Virus record (IMG/VR): IMGVR_UViG_3300035670_000069
Span: 1-64,000 of that record
DNA from: a virus
Length of the DNA: 64,000 bases
Strand: one strand, 5' to 3'
The position numbers and the translations under genes were made by a program. Below the pieces are notes generated by a model. It was not told where the DNA came from. It saw nothing but the letters and a program-made list of their open reading frames with translations, and did no database searches. Below are positions 3,287 through 19,165 of this stretch, piece after piece; positions within the stretch are counted from its first letter, which is position 1, and each line of letters opens with the position of its first letter.

Positions 3287-3910
3287 ATGTCAACAGTTAG
3301 TTCAACCAGTAAAGTAGCATACATGTATGACCAAGCGTCAGATACTTGGTATGCTGTTGCTGGTACGGCTAACACAAATGTTGCATATACTTGGAATGCT
3401 GCTCACACTTTTGGATCTATCGTAACTGTTAATGATGTTATTAGAGCAAAAGGTGGAGTAAATAGATTTCAAAACCCTACCGCCAGAGATACAGTAATTC
3501 CTTCTCCAGTTAAGGGTACTGTATGTTTTGTTGAGCAAACAGACGGCGGTACTGATATAAACCAAGTTCAAATTTATAATGGTACATCATGGGTAGGAAT
3601 GTTAGATACAACTACTCTTAATAATCAGACATCTGACTATACCCTGGTTTTGGGGGATGCTGGAAAAACAATTACAGTTGATTCTACAATAGATAGAACA
3701 ATTACTATTCCAAGCAATGCTTCTGTACCCTTCGCAATTGGACAAAGACTTGATATTATTCGTATGAACACTGGCAACGTAACTATTGGCGGTACACCAA
3801 CTATTCTTAGTAAAAATTCTAACAAGAAAATTGCTGCGAGGTATTCTGGAGCAACTCTTATCAAAACTGATACAGATACCTGGGTACTTATTGGCGATTT
3901 GACGGCGTAG
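3287..3910 (+). CDS. Tail fibre protein with C-terminal beta domain shared with 11414-13015
   Basis: A 207-residue protein. Residues about 115-207 ('TSDYTLVLGDAGKTITVDST' to 'DTDTWVLIGDLTA') align by eye with the C-terminus of the 533-residue fibre at 11414-13015 ('ASYTLALTDSTNMVTVNSGS' to 'DTDTWYLTGDIVA'). Shared points are S-VPFAIG/S-VAFPIG, the D-I-Q/R-G-VTI core, YSGG/YSGA-LIK/LVK and the ending. This is a beta-sandwich module found at phage fibre tips. The N-terminal half is unrelated and contains 'NRFQNPTARDTVIPSPVKGT', a motif seen in other phage structural proteins. Confidence 0.6.
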   Translation: MSTVSSTSKVAYMYDQASDTWYAVAGTANTNVAYTWNAAHTFGSIVTVNDVIRAKGGVNRFQNPTARDTVIPSPVKGTVCFVEQTDGGTDINQVQIYNGTSWVGMLDTTTLNNQTSDYTLVLGDAGKTITVDSTIDRTITIPSNASVPFAIGQRLDIIRMNTGNVTIGGTPTILSKNSNKKIAARYSGATLIKTDTDTWVLIGDLTA

Positions 3911-3918
3911 GTGATCCC

Positions 3919-5466
3919 ATGCTTGGATGGCTTGGAAAATGGGCGGGATCCAAAGGAATGGGAAAAATCCCAGACCTTGAAGGCTTATCTAGAGCAGATG
4001 CAAGAAACGCAATTATAAATGCTGGATTTAGTTTAGGTAATGAAACTGTAAGAGGAAATAGTCAGGGAGCAACATCTTCTAATAATGGTAAGGCTAAGGG
4101 AAGAGTTGATACAAACGAATTACTTGATTACGAATCTCAGATAGATTTTGAATACTACTCTTGGGTTGATGAACAAAATACTCAAAATACTCAAAATACT
4201 CAGAACACAGTAAACACTGTAAATACTGTTGATACCGTAAACACTGTAAATACTGTTAATACAGTAAACACCGTAAACACTGTTGACACAGTACCAACAT
4301 GTCAATATAGTTATGGAGAATGGACATCGTTAGGTACAAGAGTAGAACAGACTTGCAATGGATCCATGCTAACTGTTACAAGCGGTCAAGCAGAGGCAAG
4401 ATTTTTGGTTGATTCTGGAAATAATCTTGTTTTATTCCCACCAGAGGGATGCGGTCCTGCAGTTGAGACTAGATGGATAGGTACTCCAGAAACTACCACA
4501 ACGGAAGATTGTTATTACTGTACATGTGAGGTTGATACAGTTAATACAGTAAACACGGTTGATACCGTTGATACAGTAACCACTGTTAACACTGTTAACA
4601 CTGTTAACACTGTAGATTCTGGCCCTGGATATTGTAGATCAGAAGTTAAGCAGGATGGAATTGGTGCATGTAGTTCTGGACTTGCAACTTATACAGTTTG
4701 TTATTCTAATTCAGACTTTACTGGAAGTGTAACTTATTCAGAATGGACTGAATGCTATGAGTCAGGTGTAAATACACAAAATACAGTTAATACTGTTAAT
4801 ACAGTTAATACTGTTAATACAGTTGATACTGTTAATACAGTTGATACTGTTAATACAGTTGATACAGTAAATACTGTTGTTAATATTCAAGATACCGTTG
4901 ATACTGTTAATACGGTAAACACAGTTGACACAGTTAATACAGTAAATACTCCATGCGGACAAGAATGGTATAACTTTACTGGAAATCTTACAGAATGCTG
5001 TGGTTTGGGAGAAAGAGATCAATTAATAGATTGTAATGGAGTAGTTCTTGAAACTGTTATTAGTTGTATTGATACATGTCAAAATACACAAAATACTCAA
5101 AACACCCAAAACACTCAAAACACCCAAAATACAGTTGATACTCAAAACACCCAAAATACAGTTGATACTCAAAACACCCAAAATACAGTTGATACTCAAA
5201 ACACCCAAAACACCCAAAATACCCAAAATACAGTTGATACTCAAAACACCCAAAATACAGTTGATACTCAAAACACCCAAAACACCCAAAATACAGTTGA
5301 TACTTTTGTTAATATTCAGGATACAGTTGATACCCAAAACACACAAAATACAGTTGATACTGTAGATACTCAAAATACAGTTGATACTCAAAATACCCAA
5401 AATACTCCATGCGATTCTTGTTGTCAGATAGGCTGTGTCACCGTTGGATCGAATTGTGCCTGTTAG
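3919..5466 (+). CDS. PASTA-like, tripeptide-repeat and cysteine-rich surface protein
   Basis: A 515-residue protein of unusual design. Residues 17-40 (IPDLEGLSRADARNAIINAG) fit the first half of a PASTA domain, a fold that binds peptidoglycan in bacterial kinases and penicillin-binding proteins. Four blocks then follow (residues 87-125, 205-232, 284-344 and 389-496) made almost only of the tripeptide [Asn/Asp]-Thr-[Val/Gln]. They are separated by three cysteine-rich modules (C128-C203; about 235-283; C346-C387). The chain ends in a 20-residue tail with seven cysteines. No signal peptide or membrane segment is seen. Position among fibre genes suggests a virion surface protein. The strict 3-residue period with Thr at the centre suggests a regular rod; its structure is unknown to me. 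Confidence 0.6.
   Translation: MLGWLGKWAGSKGMGKIPDLEGLSRADARNAIINAGFSLGNETVRGNSQGATSSNNGKAKGRVDTNELLDYESQIDFEYYSWVDEQNTQNTQNTQNTVNTVNTVDTVNTVNTVNTVNTVNTVDTVPTCQYSYGEWTSLGTRVEQTCNGSMLTVTSGQAEARFLVDSGNNLVLFPPEGCGPAVETRWIGTPETTTTEDCYYCTCEVDTVNTVNTVDTVDTVTTVNTVNTVNTVDSGPGYCRSEVKQDGIGACSSGLATYTVCYSNSDFTGSVTYSEWTECYESGVNTQNTVNTVNTVNTVNTVDTVNTVDTVNTVDTVNTVVNIQDTVDTVNTVNTVDTVNTVNTPCGQEWYNFTGNLTECCGLGERDQLIDCNGVVLETVISCIDTCQNTQNTQNTQNTQNTQNTVDTQNTQNTVDTQNTQNTVDTQNTQNTQNTQNTVDTQNTQNTVDTQNTQNTQNTVDTFVNIQDTVDTQNTQNTVDTVDTQNTVDTQNTQNTPCDSCCQIGCVTVGSNCAC
4177..4293 (+). repeat. Tripeptide repeat block 1 (residues 87-125)
   Basis: Nine-base repeats encode NTQ three times, then mixed NTV and DTV. Synonymous codons alternate (AAT/AAC, ACT/ACA/ACC, GTA/GTT), so the protein sequence is more regular than the DNA. 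Confidence 0.85.
4531..4614 (+). repeat. Tripeptide repeat block 2 (residues 205-232)
   Basis: Nine-base units encode VDT/VNT repeats between two cysteine-rich modules. One unit is TTV instead of NTV or DTV. Confidence 0.85.
4768..4950 (+). repeat. Tripeptide repeat block 3 (residues 284-344)
   Basis: Mostly VNT and VDT units. The phase is interrupted once by 'VVNIQDTVDT', and that interruption recurs in block 4, so the blocks appear to derive from one another. Confidence 0.85.
5083..5406 (+). repeat. Tripeptide repeat block 4 (residues 389-496), nearly identical 27-base units
   Basis: About 108 residues of NTQ, NTV and DTQ units. At DNA level a 27-base unit encoding VDTQNTQNT recurs almost unchanged, which points to recent expansion by recombination or slippage. 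A 'VNIQDT' interruption matches the one in block 3. Confidence 0.85.
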
Positions 5467-5493: not shown

Positions 5494-5691
5494 ATGATAA
5501 CTTTTGCAATTATTGTAGATAATGAGGTTGCTTCAACGCTTGTTATTACTGATGAAAATGAATCTTTGGACCAAACACAAAGACTTGCTGCTGCCCTTAG
5601 ATCAGACTTTACTATATTAGAAACAGAAAACCATAATGTTAAGCCTGGTTGGACCTGGGATGGAACTAATTTTGTAGAACCTTTGGAGTAG
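5494..5691 (+). CDS. Small tail-fibre-cassette protein
   Basis: A 65-residue protein with 'VKPGWTWDGTNFVEPLE' at its C-terminus, a motif (PGW-YDG-F) seen at the end of small phage fibre-assembly or fibre-accessory proteins. The N-terminal 'MITFAIIVDNEVASTLVI' also fits that type. A clear AAGGAG site precedes ATG 5494. Its TTGGAGTAG end supplies the ribosome binding site for the Hint-like gene at 5695, so the two are coupled. Confidence 0.5.
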   Translation: MITFAIIVDNEVASTLVITDENESLDQTQRLAAALRSDFTILETENHNVKPGWTWDGTNFVEPLE

Positions 5692-6222: not shown

Positions 6223-6821
6223 ATAAAAAAATACTAGACGACAGAATAGTAGAATATACAGGATTACTAAACAATCCAGATAAAATAATTAATGATATAT
6301 ATGATGTATGCAAAAAATATAGTTTAAAATTTGCAGAAAGTACAATTAATAATTATCAAATAGACAAAGACAAAGTGTCATCTACAGCCTTCTGGTTACA
6401 TGCTTCTCCAAAAGATATAGAAATTTCAACAACATTTCCAAATGAAAAATTTGAAATAAATTCTTATATAGATAAAGAAGTTTCTGAAGCAGTTTTTGAT
6501 TATATTGATAATTACGATGTTAAAATAAAGCAAAAAGAAAGATGGGGTATGGTTAGATATGAGAAAGATCAGTTTATTACTTGGCATCAAGATGGACCAG
6601 ATCCAAAAGATAACCCTAATGGAAGAAAACTTTCTTTTGTTTTATATTTAAATGATAATTATGAAAATGGTGGAATTCAGTTTAGAGATTATATTGGAGG
6701 AGAGGAATATAAACCAACTGCTGGGAGTTTATTAATATTCCCCTCCTACCCTCAATATTCACATAGAGTTATTCCTGTGAGTTCTGGAACAAAATATGTC
6801 AATATTTCTTTTGCTATTTAG
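6219..6821 (+). CDS. 2OG/Fe(II)-dependent oxygenase (prolyl-hydroxylase-like)
   Basis: A 200-residue protein with a full double-stranded beta-helix signature: H123-Q-D125 as the first iron ligands, 'FVLYLNDNYENGGIQF', the 'P-T-A-G-S-LLIFPSYPQYSH' stretch with the distal ligand His182, and 'SSGTKYVNISF' with Lys192 where the 2-oxoglutarate-binding Arg is usual. This is the layout of prolyl 4-hydroxylase-type enzymes. Target unknown; protein side chains or nucleic acid are both possible. It is coupled by ATGA to the Hint-like gene. Its stop overlaps the stop of the convergent lysozyme-like gene by four bases, and no terminator is visible between them. Confidence 0.75.
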   Translation: MNKKILDDRIVEYTGLLNNPDKIINDIYDVCKKYSLKFAESTINNYQIDKDKVSSTAFWLHASPKDIEISTTFPNEKFEINSYIDKEVSEAVFDYIDNYDVKIKQKERWGMVRYEKDQFITWHQDGPDPKDNPNGRKLSFVLYLNDNYENGGIQFRDYIGGEEYKPTAGSLLIFPSYPQYSHRVIPVSSGTKYVNISFAI

Positions 6822-7396
6822 TTAGGAAATTTTTCTAACCACTCCCTAGTTCTAGGGGTAATTCCTTTCCAAGAACTCCAGTTTTCTCCTCCTTGAGACA
6901 TATGAAATGCAATTTCTGCATTAACAACTGGATTAAACAAGTCTGCATTGTGATCTAGGTCATATTTTTTACGACGATCAGGACCAAGCATTCCAATCAT
7001 ATTAATTTGAAAAATACCATACGAACTGTCTCCAGTTCTGGAATTTCCATTGAATGCAAATGGCCTACCATTACTTTCTTTTTTAGCAATAGCCCATGCC
7101 TCCTTGAGACTTTGTCCCTTAAAGCCCACTAACCTAAGTAATTCTTTAAGGTCCTTATCAGATAGAGATGTAGCGTTTTCATATTTTTCTAACTGATCTT
7201 CTTTAGCCTTAGAAACGACTTCGGCCACTTCCGTGGCCTTTAGTGATTCCTCAAGCAGGACAACAACCTGTTCAGGCTGTTTAGTGTCCTCTAATCGGTT
7301 TTCAGAAGCATTGGCAATATTTGAGTAAACCCCAAACATAGCCAATATGCTGAGTGTACCAATGATGTTCCTATTATTATTCATAAAGTTAATCAT
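6818..7396 (-). CDS. Secreted lysozyme-like/lytic transglycosylase (endolysin candidate)
   Basis: A 192-residue protein and the only reverse-strand gene. Residues 10-30 form a hydrophobic segment ending in ANA|SE, a good signal-peptidase site. A short helical linker (40-75) follows, then a goose-lysozyme/SLT-like domain with 'AIAKKESNGRPFAFN' (catalytic Glu107) and 'GDSSYGIFQIN', the classical pattern of soluble lytic transglycosylases. It should cleave the peptidoglycan glycan backbone outside the membrane, either as a signal-bearing endolysin or as an aid to entry. ATG at 7396 is chosen because AAGGAGG lies just upstream; an in-frame extension to 7423 would include the ribosome binding site. 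No holin was recognised nearby. Confidence 0.75.
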   Translation of the reverse strand: MINFMNNNRNIIGTLSILAMFGVYSNIANASENRLEDTKQPEQVVVLLEESLKATEVAEVVSKAKEDQLEKYENATSLSDKDLKELLRLVGFKGQSLKEAWAIAKKESNGRPFAFNGNSRTGDSSYGIFQINMIGMLGPDRRKKYDLDHNADLFNPVVNAEIAFHMSQGGENWSSWKGITPRTREWLEKFPN

Positions 7397-7417
7397 AGTT
7401 TCCTCCTTAGAAACGAA

Positions 7418-7440
7418 AAACACCTTGTTTAAGGGTGTTT
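7418..7440 (-). other. Stem-loop in the 5' leader of the lysozyme-like gene
   Basis: AAACACC (7418-7424) pairs with GGTGTTT (7434-7440) across a 9-base loop. Read on the - strand it is followed by TTTTT. It lies between the -10 box (7451-7456) and the ribosome binding site, so it could be an attenuator or a transcript-stabilising 5' hairpin. Confidence 0.45.
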
Positions 7441-11413: not shown

Positions 11414-13015
11414 ATGGCAACAAGAATGCAACAGCGCAGAGGGACTGCAGCACAATGGACAGATGCAGATCCAATTTTAGCAGCAGGAGAAATCGGATTT
11501 GAGACCGACACTGGTAAATTTAAGATTGGTAATGGTACCTCTGAATGGTCTGCTCTCTCCTACTTTACAGACTCACAAGATTTTGATACAACAGATTTTG
11601 TTTTAAATGCACAAAAAGGAATTGCTAATGGTGTGGCAACACTAAATGGTAACGGGCATGTTCCCATTAGCCAATTAGGCGCACTTATTGATAATGCACC
11701 AGAAGCATTAAACACATTAAATGAATTGGCGACAGCAATAACTGATTTAGAAACAAGTCTTACAGCACAAATAACATCACAAATAGACACTAATATTACG
11801 GCTCATAGACAAGATACTACAGATGTTCATGGAATTGCAGATACATCAGAACTTGCCACACAAGGATATGTTGATACTACATCAAGTAATGCGGTAAGCA
11901 CACATAATGATTTAACAACAAACGTTCATGGTATTGACGATACGACAGATCTTGCAACACAAACCTACGTAGGCACTTCAATATCTACTTCCATAACTAC
12001 ACATAATGAGTTAACTGAAAATGTACATGGTATAGCAAACACAGGCCTATTAGCAACTTCAGATGATGTTTCTACTTCAGTAACTGCACATAATGACACG
12101 ACATCAAATGTACATGGTATAGCAGATACAACACAACTAGAAACAACAAGTGGCGCACAAGACAAAGCAAACGCAGCACAGGCTGCAGCAGAAGCAACAG
12201 CATCGTCAGACGCTACAACTAAAGCAAACGCAGCACAGACTGCAGCAGAAGCAACAGCAAGCACTGCTTTAGATAACCACAATTTAGATACAACAAACGT
12301 ACATGGTATTGCAGATACAGCAGACCTTGTTCTTACAAATGATGCTCGTTTGTCTGACGAAAGAACACCACTTGATTCTTCTGTAACAGATGCAAAGATC
12401 AATGGAACTCTTTCTCAGTCATCAATTACAAATCTTACAACAGATCTTGCTGCAAAGGCTCCTCTTGAGTCCCCAGCATTAACTGGAACACCAACTGCTC
12501 CAACAGCAACTGCTGGAGATAATAGCACTCAAGTTGCTACAACAGCATATGTTGATTCAGCAGTTACAGCACTTGTTGATTCAGCACCAGGAGCACTAGA
12601 CACTCTTAATGAGTTGGCTGCTGCGCTTGGAGATGACGCAAACTTCTCAACAACTGTTACAAACAGCCTTGCTTTGAAGTTAGAACAGTCAGATCTTGAT
12701 AGTGCAACATATTACACATTTAATGCTCAAACAGCAAGTTATACTCTTGCATTAACAGATTCAACAAATATGGTTACAGTAAATTCTGGTTCAGGAACAA
12801 CAGTAACAGTTCCACCAAATTCTTCAGTAGCCTTCCCAATCGGAACATATATTGATATTTTCCAATTAGGTGCGGGACAAGTAACAATCGCAGAAGGTTC
12901 TGGAGTTACAATTTATGCAACACCAGGAAAGAAACTTCGTACACAATACTCAGGTGGATCTCTTGTTAAAAGAGATACAGATACCTGGTATTTGACAGGC
13001 GATATCGTAGCATAA
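11414..13015 (+). CDS. Large tail fibre with Mtd-N-like start and VHGIADT repeats
   Basis: A 533-residue protein. Residues 1-50 (MQQRRGTAAQWTDADPILAA with GEIGFETDTGKFKIGNG) fit the N-terminal domain of major-tropism-determinant/phage fibre proteins. About six imperfect units of 'HN-TT-VHGIADT-L' follow (residues 130-300), mixed with Ala-rich helical units (KANAAQAAAEATAS). Next come the classical fibre repeat 'ALTGTPTAPTATAGDNSTQV' with ATTAYVD and two 'DSAPGALDTLNELAAAL'-type segments. The C-terminal beta domain is shared with 3287-3910. Probably a main trimeric fibre determining adsorption. AAGGAGAG lies before the ATG. Confidence 0.75.
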   Translation: MATRMQQRRGTAAQWTDADPILAAGEIGFETDTGKFKIGNGTSEWSALSYFTDSQDFDTTDFVLNAQKGIANGVATLNGNGHVPISQLGALIDNAPEALNTLNELATAITDLETSLTAQITSQIDTNITAHRQDTTDVHGIADTSELATQGYVDTTSSNAVSTHNDLTTNVHGIDDTTDLATQTYVGTSISTSITTHNELTENVHGIANTGLLATSDDVSTSVTAHNDTTSNVHGIADTTQLETTSGAQDKANAAQAAAEATASSDATTKANAAQTAAEATASTALDNHNLDTTNVHGIADTADLVLTNDARLSDERTPLDSSVTDAKINGTLSQSSITNLTTDLAAKAPLESPALTGTPTAPTATAGDNSTQVATTAYVDSAVTALVDSAPGALDTLNELAAALGDDANFSTTVTNSLALKLEQSDLDSATYYTFNAQTASYTLALTDSTNMVTVNSGSGTTVTVPPNSSVAFPIGTYIDIFQLGAGQVTIAEGSGVTIYATPGKKLRTQYSGGSLVKRDTDTWYLTGDIVA

Positions 13016-13044: not shown

Positions 13045-14433
13045 ATGCCAATAAGAGGTAAAGGTGGTAAGGGTAGAGGTGGACGTTCTAAAACACGTCG
13101 TGAAGGAACAGTTCCAGGAGTACCAACTGGCGTAACTGCCACAGATGTTGGAACAAACCGTCCATATAATAACGGTGCAGTAACTGTAACATTTACAGCA
13201 GCATCAGACGGATCAACTCCAGCAACATCTTATACAGCATCAGGATTCTGTAGCGTACATAATACAACACATACAGTAACTGGGGCATCTTCTCCATTAA
13301 CTATAACTGGCTTTGGCTCTGGTGTATCAACAACGATTACCGTAAAGGCAAACAACCAATACGGCTCATCTGCTGATTCTTCACCATCTTCATCTGTTAC
13401 CGTAACAACTGTACCAGCCACACCTTCTGCACCTTCCGCATCTTCTCCTTCAGCAGGAACAGATAGCGTATCATGGTCAGCGCCAGCAAACGGTGGTAAG
13501 GCTATTACAAATTATTACTGGACATCATCAGATAGTAAGAGTGGAAATACAACATCTACATCTGTAAGCGTTGCTCAAGAACAGGGAACTGCTCAAACAT
13601 ATAATGTTCGTGCAGATAATGCTAACGGTTCTTCTGGAACGTCAGCAAACTCGGGATCTGTTACTACAACATTTTCTTTTACTCCGTTTAGCGTGTTCTC
13701 GTTCTCACCATTCGGCGTGTTCTCGTTCTCACCATTCGGTGTGTTCTCGTTCTCACCATTTGGTTTCTCACCATTCGGCGTGTTCTCGTTCTCACCATTC
13801 GGTGTGTTCTCGTTCTCACCATTTGGTTTCTCACCATTCAGTTTCTCACCATTTGGTTTCTCACCATTTGGTTTCTCACCATTCAGTTTCTCACCATTTG
13901 GTTTTTCACCATTTGGTTTCTCACCATTCGCTCCACTCTTTGGACCAAGAATTTATTCATTGTCTCCACATACAAAAGTAAGAATGGCTGATGGAACCTT
14001 AAAAGAGGCACAAGATATTGTTTTAGGAGATGAACTAATGTCTGTGATTCTTCCAGGACTTGGTGATGTATTTACAACAGAAAGTCTTGCTGCATGGTCT
14101 ACATCCGAAGATATTTCAGATTTAAATACTGTTTCAACAACTGTAAATAGAATCAAAACTCATACATCTGAGACTCTTCATATAATTAATGGAGATTCTT
14201 TCTCTCCTAGCCACCTTGTTTTAGTAAAAACAGATAATGATGTTTCTATGAAAAAAGTTTCTGACATTGTAGAAACAGATTTCGTTTGGTCTCAAGGGCA
14301 GTGGAATGAAATTACTACATTAGAAGTAATAGAATATCAAAATAATGTTATTAATATTAACTGCGAACCATATGATATTTTCTTTACAGAAAATGCCCTA
14401 ACCCACGATGGCGCCGAATACTATAACAATTAA
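13045..14433 (+). CDS. Fibronectin-type / SPF-repeat / Hint-domain surface protein
   Basis: A 462-residue mosaic. Residues 1-22 are Gly/Arg/Lys-rich. About 24-125 and 128-212 are two fibronectin type III-like domains. Residues 213-295 are repeats of SPFGVFSF and SPFGF. Residues about 303-462 are a Hint domain: 'SLSPHTKVRMADGTLKEAQD' with VLGDEL, S387-x-x-H390 as the TxxH-like block, and 'PYDIFFTENALTHDG' at the end. The nucleophile position is Ser305, and the usual C-terminal His-Asn is His-Asp. An autocatalytic reaction is possible but not assured. If active it would cleave after the SPF stalk or attach it to another molecule. AAGGAGA precedes ATG. A strong terminator follows. Confidence 0.7.
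   Translation: MPIRGKGGKGRGGRSKTRREGTVPGVPTGVTATDVGTNRPYNNGAVTVTFTAASDGSTPATSYTASGFCSVHNTTHTVTGASSPLTITGFGSGVSTTITVKANNQYGSSADSSPSSSVTVTTVPATPSAPSASSPSAGTDSVSWSAPANGGKAITNYYWTSSDSKSGNTTSTSVSVAQEQGTAQTYNVRADNANGSSGTSANSGSVTTTFSFTPFSVFSFSPFGVFSFSPFGVFSFSPFGFSPFGVFSFSPFGVFSFSPFGFSPFSFSPFGFSPFGFSPFSFSPFGFSPFGFSPFAPLFGPRIYSLSPHTKVRMADGTLKEAQDIVLGDELMSVILPGLGDVFTTESLAAWSTSEDISDLNTVSTTVNRIKTHTSETLHIINGDSFSPSHLVLVKTDNDVSMKKVSDIVETDFVWSQGQWNEITTLEVIEYQNNVININCEPYDIFFTENALTHDGAEYYNN
13681..13929 (+). repeat. SPF repeat tract (residues 213-295)
   Basis: Tandem DNA units of 24 bases (encoding SPFGVFSF) and 15 bases (encoding SPFGF or SPFSF) are almost identical in sequence. The peptide is about 40% Phe with regular Ser-Pro, strikingly hydrophobic for a virion surface stalk. 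Confidence 0.85.
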
Positions 14434-18054: not shown

Positions 18055-18663
18055 ATGAATATTGTAGAAAATTTTATTAGCGAAGAAGATGTTAAAGTAA
18101 TACAAGAATATATAAAAACTATTAAATTTAACACTAAGGAAGATCATGATCCACTACATGATAAATTATTTAGCATAGAAAATAATCATTTTGATATTCA
18201 CACAAGAGGAGAAATGCCAGATCATATCCTTGAAATTTTTTCAAAATATTCAAAAGGATTTTATAAAATTGTACAAGATTTAAATGAAGAAGAATATCAT
18301 CCTCCAATGTTTTCTAAGCACTACATACTAAGGTATAAGGAGGGCGCTAATTCTCCAGTTCATCATAATGAAGATTCAAAGCCGAAGGGCACGTATGGGT
18401 CAATCATTGTTTGGCAAAACGCAGACTCTGGAGGAGAAATAACATTCCCTTATTTAGAAAAAACAATTAAAACAAATCCAGGAGATTTAGTTTTCTTTGA
18501 AGAATTAGAATTAAATTCTCGTGGAATTTCAGACATACTTTCTGGCAACATGTTTATTTCTGAAGCCTGGATGGGTAAAAAGGGACAACTTTGGATGGAA
18601 AACAGAACCACATATGAAGAAGTTAACTGGGACGATTGGGAAATAAAAGGATTTCATGAATAA
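18055..18663 (+). CDS. 2OG/Fe(II) oxygenase-like protein lacking the distal His
   Basis: A 202-residue protein. The core 'YILRYKEGANSPVHHNEDSK', 'GSIIVWQNADSGGEITFPY' and 'NPGDLVFFEELELNSRG' follow the prolyl-hydroxylase-like fold, with H104 and E106 or D107 as possible first iron ligands. The place of the third ligand, normally a His after the 'GDLVFF' strand, reads N-S-R-G, and no Arg in the usual 2OG position is clear. It may be inactive, use different ligands or bind something else. It starts 2 bases after the reductase stop and overlaps the next gene by 8 bases. Confidence 0.5.
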   Translation: MNIVENFISEEDVKVIQEYIKTIKFNTKEDHDPLHDKLFSIENNHFDIHTRGEMPDHILEIFSKYSKGFYKIVQDLNEEEYHPPMFSKHYILRYKEGANSPVHHNEDSKPKGTYGSIIVWQNADSGGEITFPYLEKTIKTNPGDLVFFEELELNSRGISDILSGNMFISEAWMGKKGQLWMENRTTYEEVNWDDWEIKGFHE

Positions 18664-19165
18664 TCTTGTTAAACATATTCCAAATTTTATGAATGCAACA
18701 GATGCTGTAAACGTTTATTTATATGCAAAAGATAATGATTCTTTATTTACAGAATACGGGAATAACGAAAAAGAGTTTACTTTTCATGCTAGTTTTACAG
18801 ATGAAGATATTAAAAATATTTTAAATGAATATGGGAAAAATGTTTGGAATTTTGTTTCTGAAAATTATAACGGAGAATTTGCTCAATATGACAATTCAAA
18901 AACACATATTGCCAAATTTACAGAGGGATACGGAATGCATGAGCATTTTGATTCAACAAAACCAAACGATATAGCAACGTTAATTTATATTAATGACAAC
19001 TATGATGGAGGAGACATTTATTTCCCAGAACTTGGAATTTCTATTAAACCAGGCATAGGAGATTTAGTTTGTTTTCCAGATACACCAGACTTTGTCCATG
19101 GAGTAAAGCCAATTACAAATGGCATAAGATATACGTCTCCAAGATGGATAACACGGCTGGTATGA
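18656..19165 (+). CDS. 2OG/Fe(II)-dependent oxygenase (prolyl-hydroxylase-like)
   Basis: A 169-residue enzyme with a complete signature: 'GYGMHEHFDS' (H97-x-D99), 'LIYINDNYDGGDIYFPELG', 'KPGIGDLVCFPDTPDFVHGV' (distal His148) and 'TNGIRYTSPRW' (Arg158 for 2-oxoglutarate). This is the clearest prolyl 4-hydroxylase-type protein in the window, compact and without added domains. The substrate could be a side chain of a virion or host protein. It overlaps 18055-18663 by 8 bases. Its stop lies in the next promoter. Confidence 0.75.
   Translation: MNNLVKHIPNFMNATDAVNVYLYAKDNDSLFTEYGNNEKEFTFHASFTDEDIKNILNEYGKNVWNFVSENYNGEFAQYDNSKTHIAKFTEGYGMHEHFDSTKPNDIATLIYINDNYDGGDIYFPELGISIKPGIGDLVCFPDTPDFVHGVKPITNGIRYTSPRWITRLV

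Follow-up and report, generated by a model that had tools for sequence, protein, structure and literature searches.

The rod gene and its surroundings

The window analysed here, 64,000 nucleotides in length, belongs to a virus record of 108,556 bases. Genes for a portal, a major capsid protein, a tape measure protein, an Mtd-type tail fibre and a DnaE-like polymerase were found in the record, and the virus is therefore a tailed phage. Among isolates it is nearest to large Streptomyces phages such as BillNye and Bmoc, with 53-56% identity in the polymerase and 43-44% in the capsid protein, and this points to a host that is probably an actinobacterium. Cellular genomes searched with the profile of the Hint domain described below gave distant Hint proteins only, none with an adjoining oxygenase gene, and no host or prophage was found in this way.

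The rod gene, P0001 (3919-5466, + strand), is an intact open reading frame encoding 515 amino acids. Its product begins with a head (3919-4167, residues 1-83) within which residues 16-80 form a PASTA-like domain. Beyond this lie four blocks of the tripeptide [ND]T[VQ], as had been described in the initial annotation of this DNA, separated by cysteine-rich modules. Block 1 (4177-4293, residues 87-125) is followed by a cysteine-rich beta module (4300-4533, residues 128-205) that is modelled with pLDDT ~80 over residues 130-197, and block 2 (4534-4614, residues 206-232) by a second module delimited by sequence (4615-4770, residues 233-284). Block 3 (4771-4953, residues 285-345) precedes a third module (4954-5082, residues 346-388), with the pattern ECCG...DCNG, that is common to relatives with NTQ stalks, and block 4 (5083-5409, residues 389-497) leads into the C-terminal tail (5410-5463). 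The tail, CDSCCQIGCVTVGSNCAC, contains six of the 22 cysteines of the whole protein and not seven as first counted; in its place the NTQ relatives have a glycine-rich linker and a Hint domain.

The repeat is real. There are 72 [ND]T[VQ] triplets in P0001 (NTV 32, NTQ 19, DTV 13 and DTQ 8), compared with a maximum of 13 in 1000 shuffles, and they occupy 216 of the 515 residues where some 230 had been estimated. The period of three is strict, the central threonine is invariant and asparagine or aspartate remains in register, with one V-N-I-Q interruption in each of blocks 3 and 4. The earlier observation that the protein is more regular than the DNA in blocks 1-3 holds: the threonine codons are mixed, and NTV is spelled by 6, 4 and 5 different 9-mers in blocks 1, 2 and 3, compared with one in block 4. 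The DNA of block 4 is indeed near-identical from unit to unit, but is better described as nested repeats of 27, 45 and 99 bp (the last at 97% match) than as 27-base units. Selection at the level of protein, also claimed at the outset, is borne out by the relatives, in which the frames stay open and the triplet grammar persists as the number of repeats changes, from 87 to 219 NT residues across the PASTA-NTQ/NTV group. No frame break was seen in any of the relatives.

The repeat has no match to any family in Pfam, PHROGs or NCBIfam, in agreement with the first impression that it is not a named one, and a tblastn search of 50,697 phage records with P0001 returned zero matches. It is not collagen-like, the triplets being [ND]T[VQ] and not Gly-X-Y, with no glycine in register. 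The cysteine-rich modules of P0001 gave no match to the thrombospondin type 1 profile (PF00090); one relative, L066, has such a match, at 34.9 bits against a cut-off of 21.6. An AlphaFold monomer calculated from a shallow alignment of 4 sequences has pLDDT ~25-37 in all the repeat blocks, and a fold search with this poor model gave no structural match, with nothing under E = 0.2. The stalk is predicted to be extended and unstructured.

Directly upstream of the rod is a tail-associated gene (3287-3910, + strand), the C-terminal domain of which corresponds to PHROG 8780/21510, minor tail protein. In the relatives L209 and L089 this domain and the rod form one continuous reading frame, and the stalk can thus be assigned to the tail-fibre apparatus. 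The initial proposal of an extended spacer or rod is supported, and its location would be the surface of the virion. A separate tail fibre, encoded at 11414-13015, has the N-terminal domain of the Major tropism determinant (Mtd_N).

Downstream of the rod are a small ORF of 65 amino acids (5494-5691, + strand; PHROG 14370, function not assigned), a stand-alone Hint gene, P0002 (5695-6222, + strand), and a 2OG-Fe(II) oxygenase gene, P0003 (6219-6821, + strand), that starts ~750 bp past the end of the rod. The Hint and oxygenase genes, like the PASTA-like domain, were absent from the initial annotation. P0003 matches PF13640 (P4H-like) with 52.7 bits against a cut-off of 27. The HxD...H triad is kept as H123, D125 and H182, all invariant in the alignment, and Lys192 lies in the Arg/Lys column of the 2OG-binding basic residue. 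The closest matches of the oxygenase profile are PKHD-type hydroxylases and prolyl hydroxylases. Directly past P0003 is a lysozyme-like/SLT transglycosylase gene (6818-7423, - strand), and at the corresponding place three NTQ relatives (L002, L003 and L005) also have a gene on the opposite strand, similar in its size and its start. A second 2OG-Fe(II) oxygenase, with 38 bits against PF13640, is encoded at 18656-19165, two genes past a B12-dependent ribonucleotide reductase and not beside a rod.

Interchangeable stalks and the Hint domain

All the relatives are metagenomic contigs. P0001 itself has no match to the Pfam PASTA profile PF03793 at its gathering cut-off of 23.2, but relatives pass: L005, an NTQ relative with a head 60% identical, scores 35.0 bits, L079 scores 31.0 and L098, with three copies, 89.6. 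Among PDB entries the head profile matches PknB PASTA chains best. In the NTQ relatives L002, L003 and L005, which come from other metagenomes, the PASTA head, NTQ stalks, cysteine modules, glycine-rich linker and C-terminal Hint domain are contained in a single ORF, and the oxygenase gene begins within a few bases after it.

Within the PASTA-head family the stalks are of the types NTQ, NTV, NTI, VTP, TPTP, NPPYY, NTDPPVV and APVAAPT. A search with the Hint profile found stalks of NTI, ATI, NTV, ATQ, VTP, TPTP, FFPYFPP, NPPVYS and APPFFFSPP preceding a Hint domain, behind unrelated heads. In rods of the NT type, positions 1 and 3 vary freely (N/D/A and V/I/Q). Comparison of the predicted proteins shows that stalk chemistry is interchangeable between relatives. 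Long DTV arrays are also present near the C-terminus of unrelated phage proteins (L031, L032, L043 and L044), with no Hint or oxygenase match in the stretch examined. Two rod proteins, L061 and L066, lack a Hint domain and have a cysteine-rich tail like that of P0001, as if disulfides replaced Hint-mediated attachment.

The AlphaFold model of P0002 (pLDDT 85) has the Hint fold, its best match being BIL2 6y75 (E 8e-9, TM 0.67-0.69/0.78), followed by 2lwy, inteins and Hedgehog 1at0. BIL type A domains are defined by Cys/Ser1, TxxH and a C-terminal His-Asn with no +1 nucleophile (PMC4031507). All three motifs are lost in P0002, with Lys29 replacing Cys1, and neither the block-B TxxH nor the C-terminal His-Asn being kept. 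Judged by these motifs P0002 is a degenerate and catalytically dead relative rather than an active BIL; despite this it is kept as an open gene. In the NT-rod relatives Cys1, TxEH and HN are all kept in the Hint, and none of the 18 His-Asn rows of the NT-rod group has Cys, Ser or Thr after the asparagine, although L073, in another set, has Ser. With the motifs kept and none of these residues following the asparagine, the Hint domains of the NT-rod relatives conform to the BIL type A pattern. The likeliest reading is that the window phage carries an ancestral design with the Hint domain split off.

A second protein of the same design is encoded in the window (13045-14433, + strand). It has an Ig/Fn3-like region, recognised by eye, an (FSPFG)n rod and a C-terminal Hint domain (Ser1, SxxH, His-Asp). 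There is no adjacent oxygenase gene, and the enzyme encoded at 18656-19165 could act on the FSPFG rod in trans. Hint domains also occur in other phage settings. Proteins of ~580 amino acids (L108-L134, which start like MPRTNLSLGNLYRAVSGS) have the Hint from ~residue 172, an internal, intein-like position with a long part after it, and no oxygenase gene adjoins. A Hint protein of ~910 amino acids without a rod (L121, L135 and L136) is followed by three consecutive 2OG oxygenases.

Pairing of rods with downstream oxygenases

The association was counted in three samples collected by different anchors, namely the Hint domain, the oxygenase and the DNA pattern of the rods; some contigs are common to samples. 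In the rod-anchored sample the rods were found by DNA pattern only and dereplicated, and an oxygenase gene within 1.5 kb was scored both upstream and downstream. Among the matches listed, NTI rods have an oxygenase downstream in 11 of 12 cases and upstream in none of 8. The corresponding downstream counts among the matches listed for VTP rods (17/48, with 0/40 upstream) and FFPP rods (33/54, with 0/47 upstream) are lower bounds, because the HMM was seeded with NT-rod loci and L060 and would miss other oxygenase families. Pooled over the three rod types, an oxygenase lies downstream in 61 of 114 and upstream in 0 of 95, again among the matches listed.

The same orientation is seen from the enzyme. 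With seed contigs excluded and one low-complexity cut-off applied, a low-complexity ORF was present within 3 kb upstream of the oxygenase at 17 of 26 independent loci, and downstream at 3 of 44 (p = 3e-7). In the Hint-anchored test, the oxygenase was the next gene for 15 of 18 distinct rod-Hint ORFs, and for none of the 79 cellular Hint loci. It was also next for 6 of the 25 Hint ORFs that did not score as rods, and four of these (L073, L074, L076 and L141) in fact belong to rod or window loci that narrowly exceeded the entropy limit, were truncated or were split. In NT loci the spacing between rod and oxygenase genes is near zero, or the genes overlap. Among the matches listed, a Hint domain is part of 12 of 13 NTI rods, and of few of the VTP (7/59) and FFPP (8/65) rods, so that the oxygenase goes with the stalk and not with the Hint. 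A per-ORF control, in which a low-complexity ORF was sought among the two previous genes, gave no enrichment (45 of 262 oxygenases versus 50 of 279 other ORFs); this comparison is uninformative because ORFs just past a rod-oxygenase pair also score and arrays were not dereplicated, and the rod-anchored comparison of upstream with downstream took its place.

Not every rod is paired. There is no adjacent oxygenase in about two thirds of the VTP rods among the matches listed, nor in L061, L066, L075 and L090, though an unlinked oxygenase could act in trans. The possibility that Asn/Asp rods alone are paired, and Pro/Phe rods are not, was ruled out by the oxygenase-anchored scan, in which FFPP, APPGFF, PPAT and VTP rods were also seen beside oxygenases. 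In L162, L172, L174, L184, L191 and L218, three to five 2OG oxygenase genes stand in a row with no rod in view.

Oxygenase phylogeny was compared with rod chemistry. In a first tree of 47 rows the enzymes of NT rods form a clade with support of 100/100, which extends across PASTA, WWRK, KHLQ and other heads. A tree of 63 rows was made from the rod-anchored sample (among the matches listed) together with P0003; for NTI loci with two oxygenases, the one with the better score was entered. Here too the NT enzymes, including P0003, form one clade (SH-aLRT 98). The three rod chemistries require 3 changes on this tree, the minimum possible being 2, and when the labels were shuffled the mean was 25.4 changes with 0 of 200 shuffles as low as 3, bearing in mind that shuffles ignore relatedness. 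We propose as a class an NT rod with an oxygenase of the NT clade downstream, and P0001 and P0003 have this arrangement.

Some relatives have exchanged stalks. The PASTA head of L060 is 82% identical to that of the window, yet its rod is VTP and its oxygenase is of the VTP type. L089 has a head in common with L168 and L209, and it has an NT stalk (with TPTP) and an NT-type oxygenase, whereas in L209 and L168 the stalks are VTP or PVAAP and the oxygenase is of the other type. On sequence comparison these are natural swaps that separate the ancestry of the head from that of the stalk, and in them stalk and enzyme are kept together and matched. Transfer of a cassette by linkage would give the same co-switching, which does not by itself prove contact between enzyme and substrate.

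A candidate self-modified tail fibre

We think it probable that P0001 is a tail-associated fibre with an extended stalk that is hydroxylated by the dedicated oxygenase encoded adjacently, in a modular tail-fibre system. The PASTA head, which would provide an anchor or contact the cell wall, is followed by long [ND]T[VQ] stalks, predicted to be extended and largely unfolded and broken by disulfide-capable beta modules. As part of the virion this stalk would be the substrate of P0003, which most likely hydroxylates residues of the repeat, and the modification might stiffen or decorate the stalk, or prepare it for glycosylation. In the majority of relatives that have such a stalk, the type-A BIL-like Hint domain that follows the glycine linker would cleave itself off; alternatively, the C-terminus of the stalk might be passed through a thioester to a nucleophile. 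In the window phage, where the Hint domain is split off and catalytically dead, the stalk ends in a six-cysteine cap instead.

Proline is the obvious target of hydroxylation in the FFPP and VTP stalks. The NT stalks contain no proline, and thus lack the substrate known for the closest enzymes that have been characterised, which counts against our explanation. Threonine together with Val/Ile/Gln is common to all the NT stalks, and no residue but threonine is shared by every rod of the NT oxygenase clade. A more ambitious form of the proposal has proline-free [NDA]T[VIQ] rods hydroxylated by a 2OG clade of their own at a residue for which such modification is not known in proteins, with a BIL/Hint thioester serving covalent attachment in the intact members; such self-modified stalks, a class not recognised before, we put forward tentatively, as an unlikely combination. 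A little easier to credit, though still not what we would expect, is that the Hint domain is a self-removing assembly domain and not a device for covalent attachment, with the window fibre assembling without it. Its C-terminal location past a flexible glycine linker and the retention of all three catalytic motifs in the NT-rod group are consistent with this, and the S74 domain has been discussed as a precedent for low-complexity tail fibres (PMC7824862). Yet the free Hint of the window is kept as an open gene even though catalytically dead. Moreover, Hint domains are to our knowledge not known as chaperones.

Aquatic phages commonly carry 2OG-Fe(II) oxygenases, for which roles in host nitrogen metabolism or DNA repair have so far been guessed. 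Modulation of 2OG levels has been proposed, with DNA repair cited (Sullivan et al. 2010, PMC3037559), and the phage gene has been placed among the auxiliary metabolic genes (Roux et al. 2014, PMC4164917). In line with this literature, P0003 might serve host metabolism through 2-oxoglutarate/nitrogen signalling, or nucleic-acid repair, and lie in a cargo hot spot beside fibre genes, as the arrays of 3-5 oxygenases without a rod in view (L162, L172 and L184) might suggest. We consider this rather improbable, since neither the strict direction among the matches listed (61/114 downstream versus 0/95 upstream of rods), nor the genes that almost touch or overlap in NT loci, nor the match of clade and chemistry across unrelated heads would be expected of a cargo hot spot.

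The other alternatives concern the repeat itself. It might fold as a regular rod, either a beta-solenoid or a trimeric fibre, with a functional face, and the initial annotation had raised the possibility of an ice- or glycan-binding surface. The strict period of three, the invariant central threonine and the Asn/Asp in register would suit this, and the monomer prediction is compatible with a trimeric fold. However, pLDDT is 25-37 in every repeat block of the monomer with no structural match, positions 1 (N/D/A) and 3 (V/I/Q) vary freely, and VTP, TPTP, NPPYY or APVAAPT are found behind the same head. A specific binding lattice would not tolerate such swaps, so a rigid binding surface is disfavoured and a folded rod of any kind seems to us improbable. 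Least probable of all is that the repeats are near-neutral filler generated by slippage, unmodified and with length as their sole role. While the near-identical DNA units of block 4 and the spread in NT content of the PASTA-NTQ/NTV group (87 to 219 residues) are what slippage would produce, blocks 1-3 keep the peptide as codons vary, NT rods recur after heads of unrelated kinds and are still paired with the same clade of oxygenases, and the relatives have no visible frame breaks.

If the hydroxylated-fibre explanation is correct, a set of phage 'auxiliary metabolic genes' would be explained as virion-modifying enzymes, and many phage 2OG oxygenases now counted as metabolic would be enzymes that modify fibres. 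Three groups of low-complexity phage proteins would gain a role, and enzyme-substrate pairs with simple repeat substrates, one of them proline-free, would become available for protein engineering. Phage stalks join the proteins bearing Hedgehog/intein-like domains, and the pairing suggests that phages chemically modify their own fibres.

In the open-access literature we found no paper on phage proteins with Hint domains or low-complexity stalks paired with 2OG oxygenases, on the direction of such pairing, or on a match of clade with chemistry. There are nevertheless several systems with which comparison can be made. BIL type A domains (6y75 and 2lwy; PMC4031507) have the same fold, and the relatives share with them Cys1, TxxH, the terminal His-Asn and the lack of a +1 nucleophile; unlike these, the window encodes its Hint as a gene of its own in which none of the three motifs is left, and the Hint of the relatives caps phage stalks beside an oxygenase. 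In the Dickeya/Erwinia jumbo phages (phage AD1 gp108; PHROG 38766) there is similarly a tail-region protein, annotated as structural in the virion, that carries a C-terminal Hint domain, but no oxygenase is annotated among the seven genes shown for the AD1 locus, and the AD1 paper does not report detection of gp108 in virions by mass spectrometry.

The closest precedents are a pointer to collagen in viral tail fibres, made where phage prolyl hydroxylases are described as cryptic (PMC9301287), and the viral prolyl 4-hydroxylase of PBCV-1 (Eriksson et al. 1999, as cited in PMC9301287). Collagen-like phage tail fibres are alike in that a tripeptide-repeat fibre is encoded near a 2OG oxygenase, but there it is a Gly-X-Y triple helix and the NT repeats of P0001 have neither glycine nor proline. 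In Synechococcus phage ACG-2014f (L235) the genes for a collagen repeat protein, a glycosyltransferase, a 2OG oxygenase and a tail fibre lie close together. In PBCV-1 also, a virus-encoded 2OG-Fe(II) hydroxylase is thought to act on short-period repeats of the virus itself, its presumed substrates being short proline repeats of viral proteins. PBCV-1, however, is an algal virus with proline repeats, whereas the NT rods are proline-free, and we know of no adjacent gene pair, Hint or PASTA domain in it. The antifreeze glycoprotein (Ala-Ala-Thr)n is, like the NT stalk, an extended tripeptide repeat centred on threonine, and in fish it is modified at that residue; it differs in its other residues and in the phage fibre context of P0001. 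The pairing may be of a known general kind, a virus-encoded hydroxylase for viral repeat proteins, of which modification of a proline-free rod may be a more radical form.
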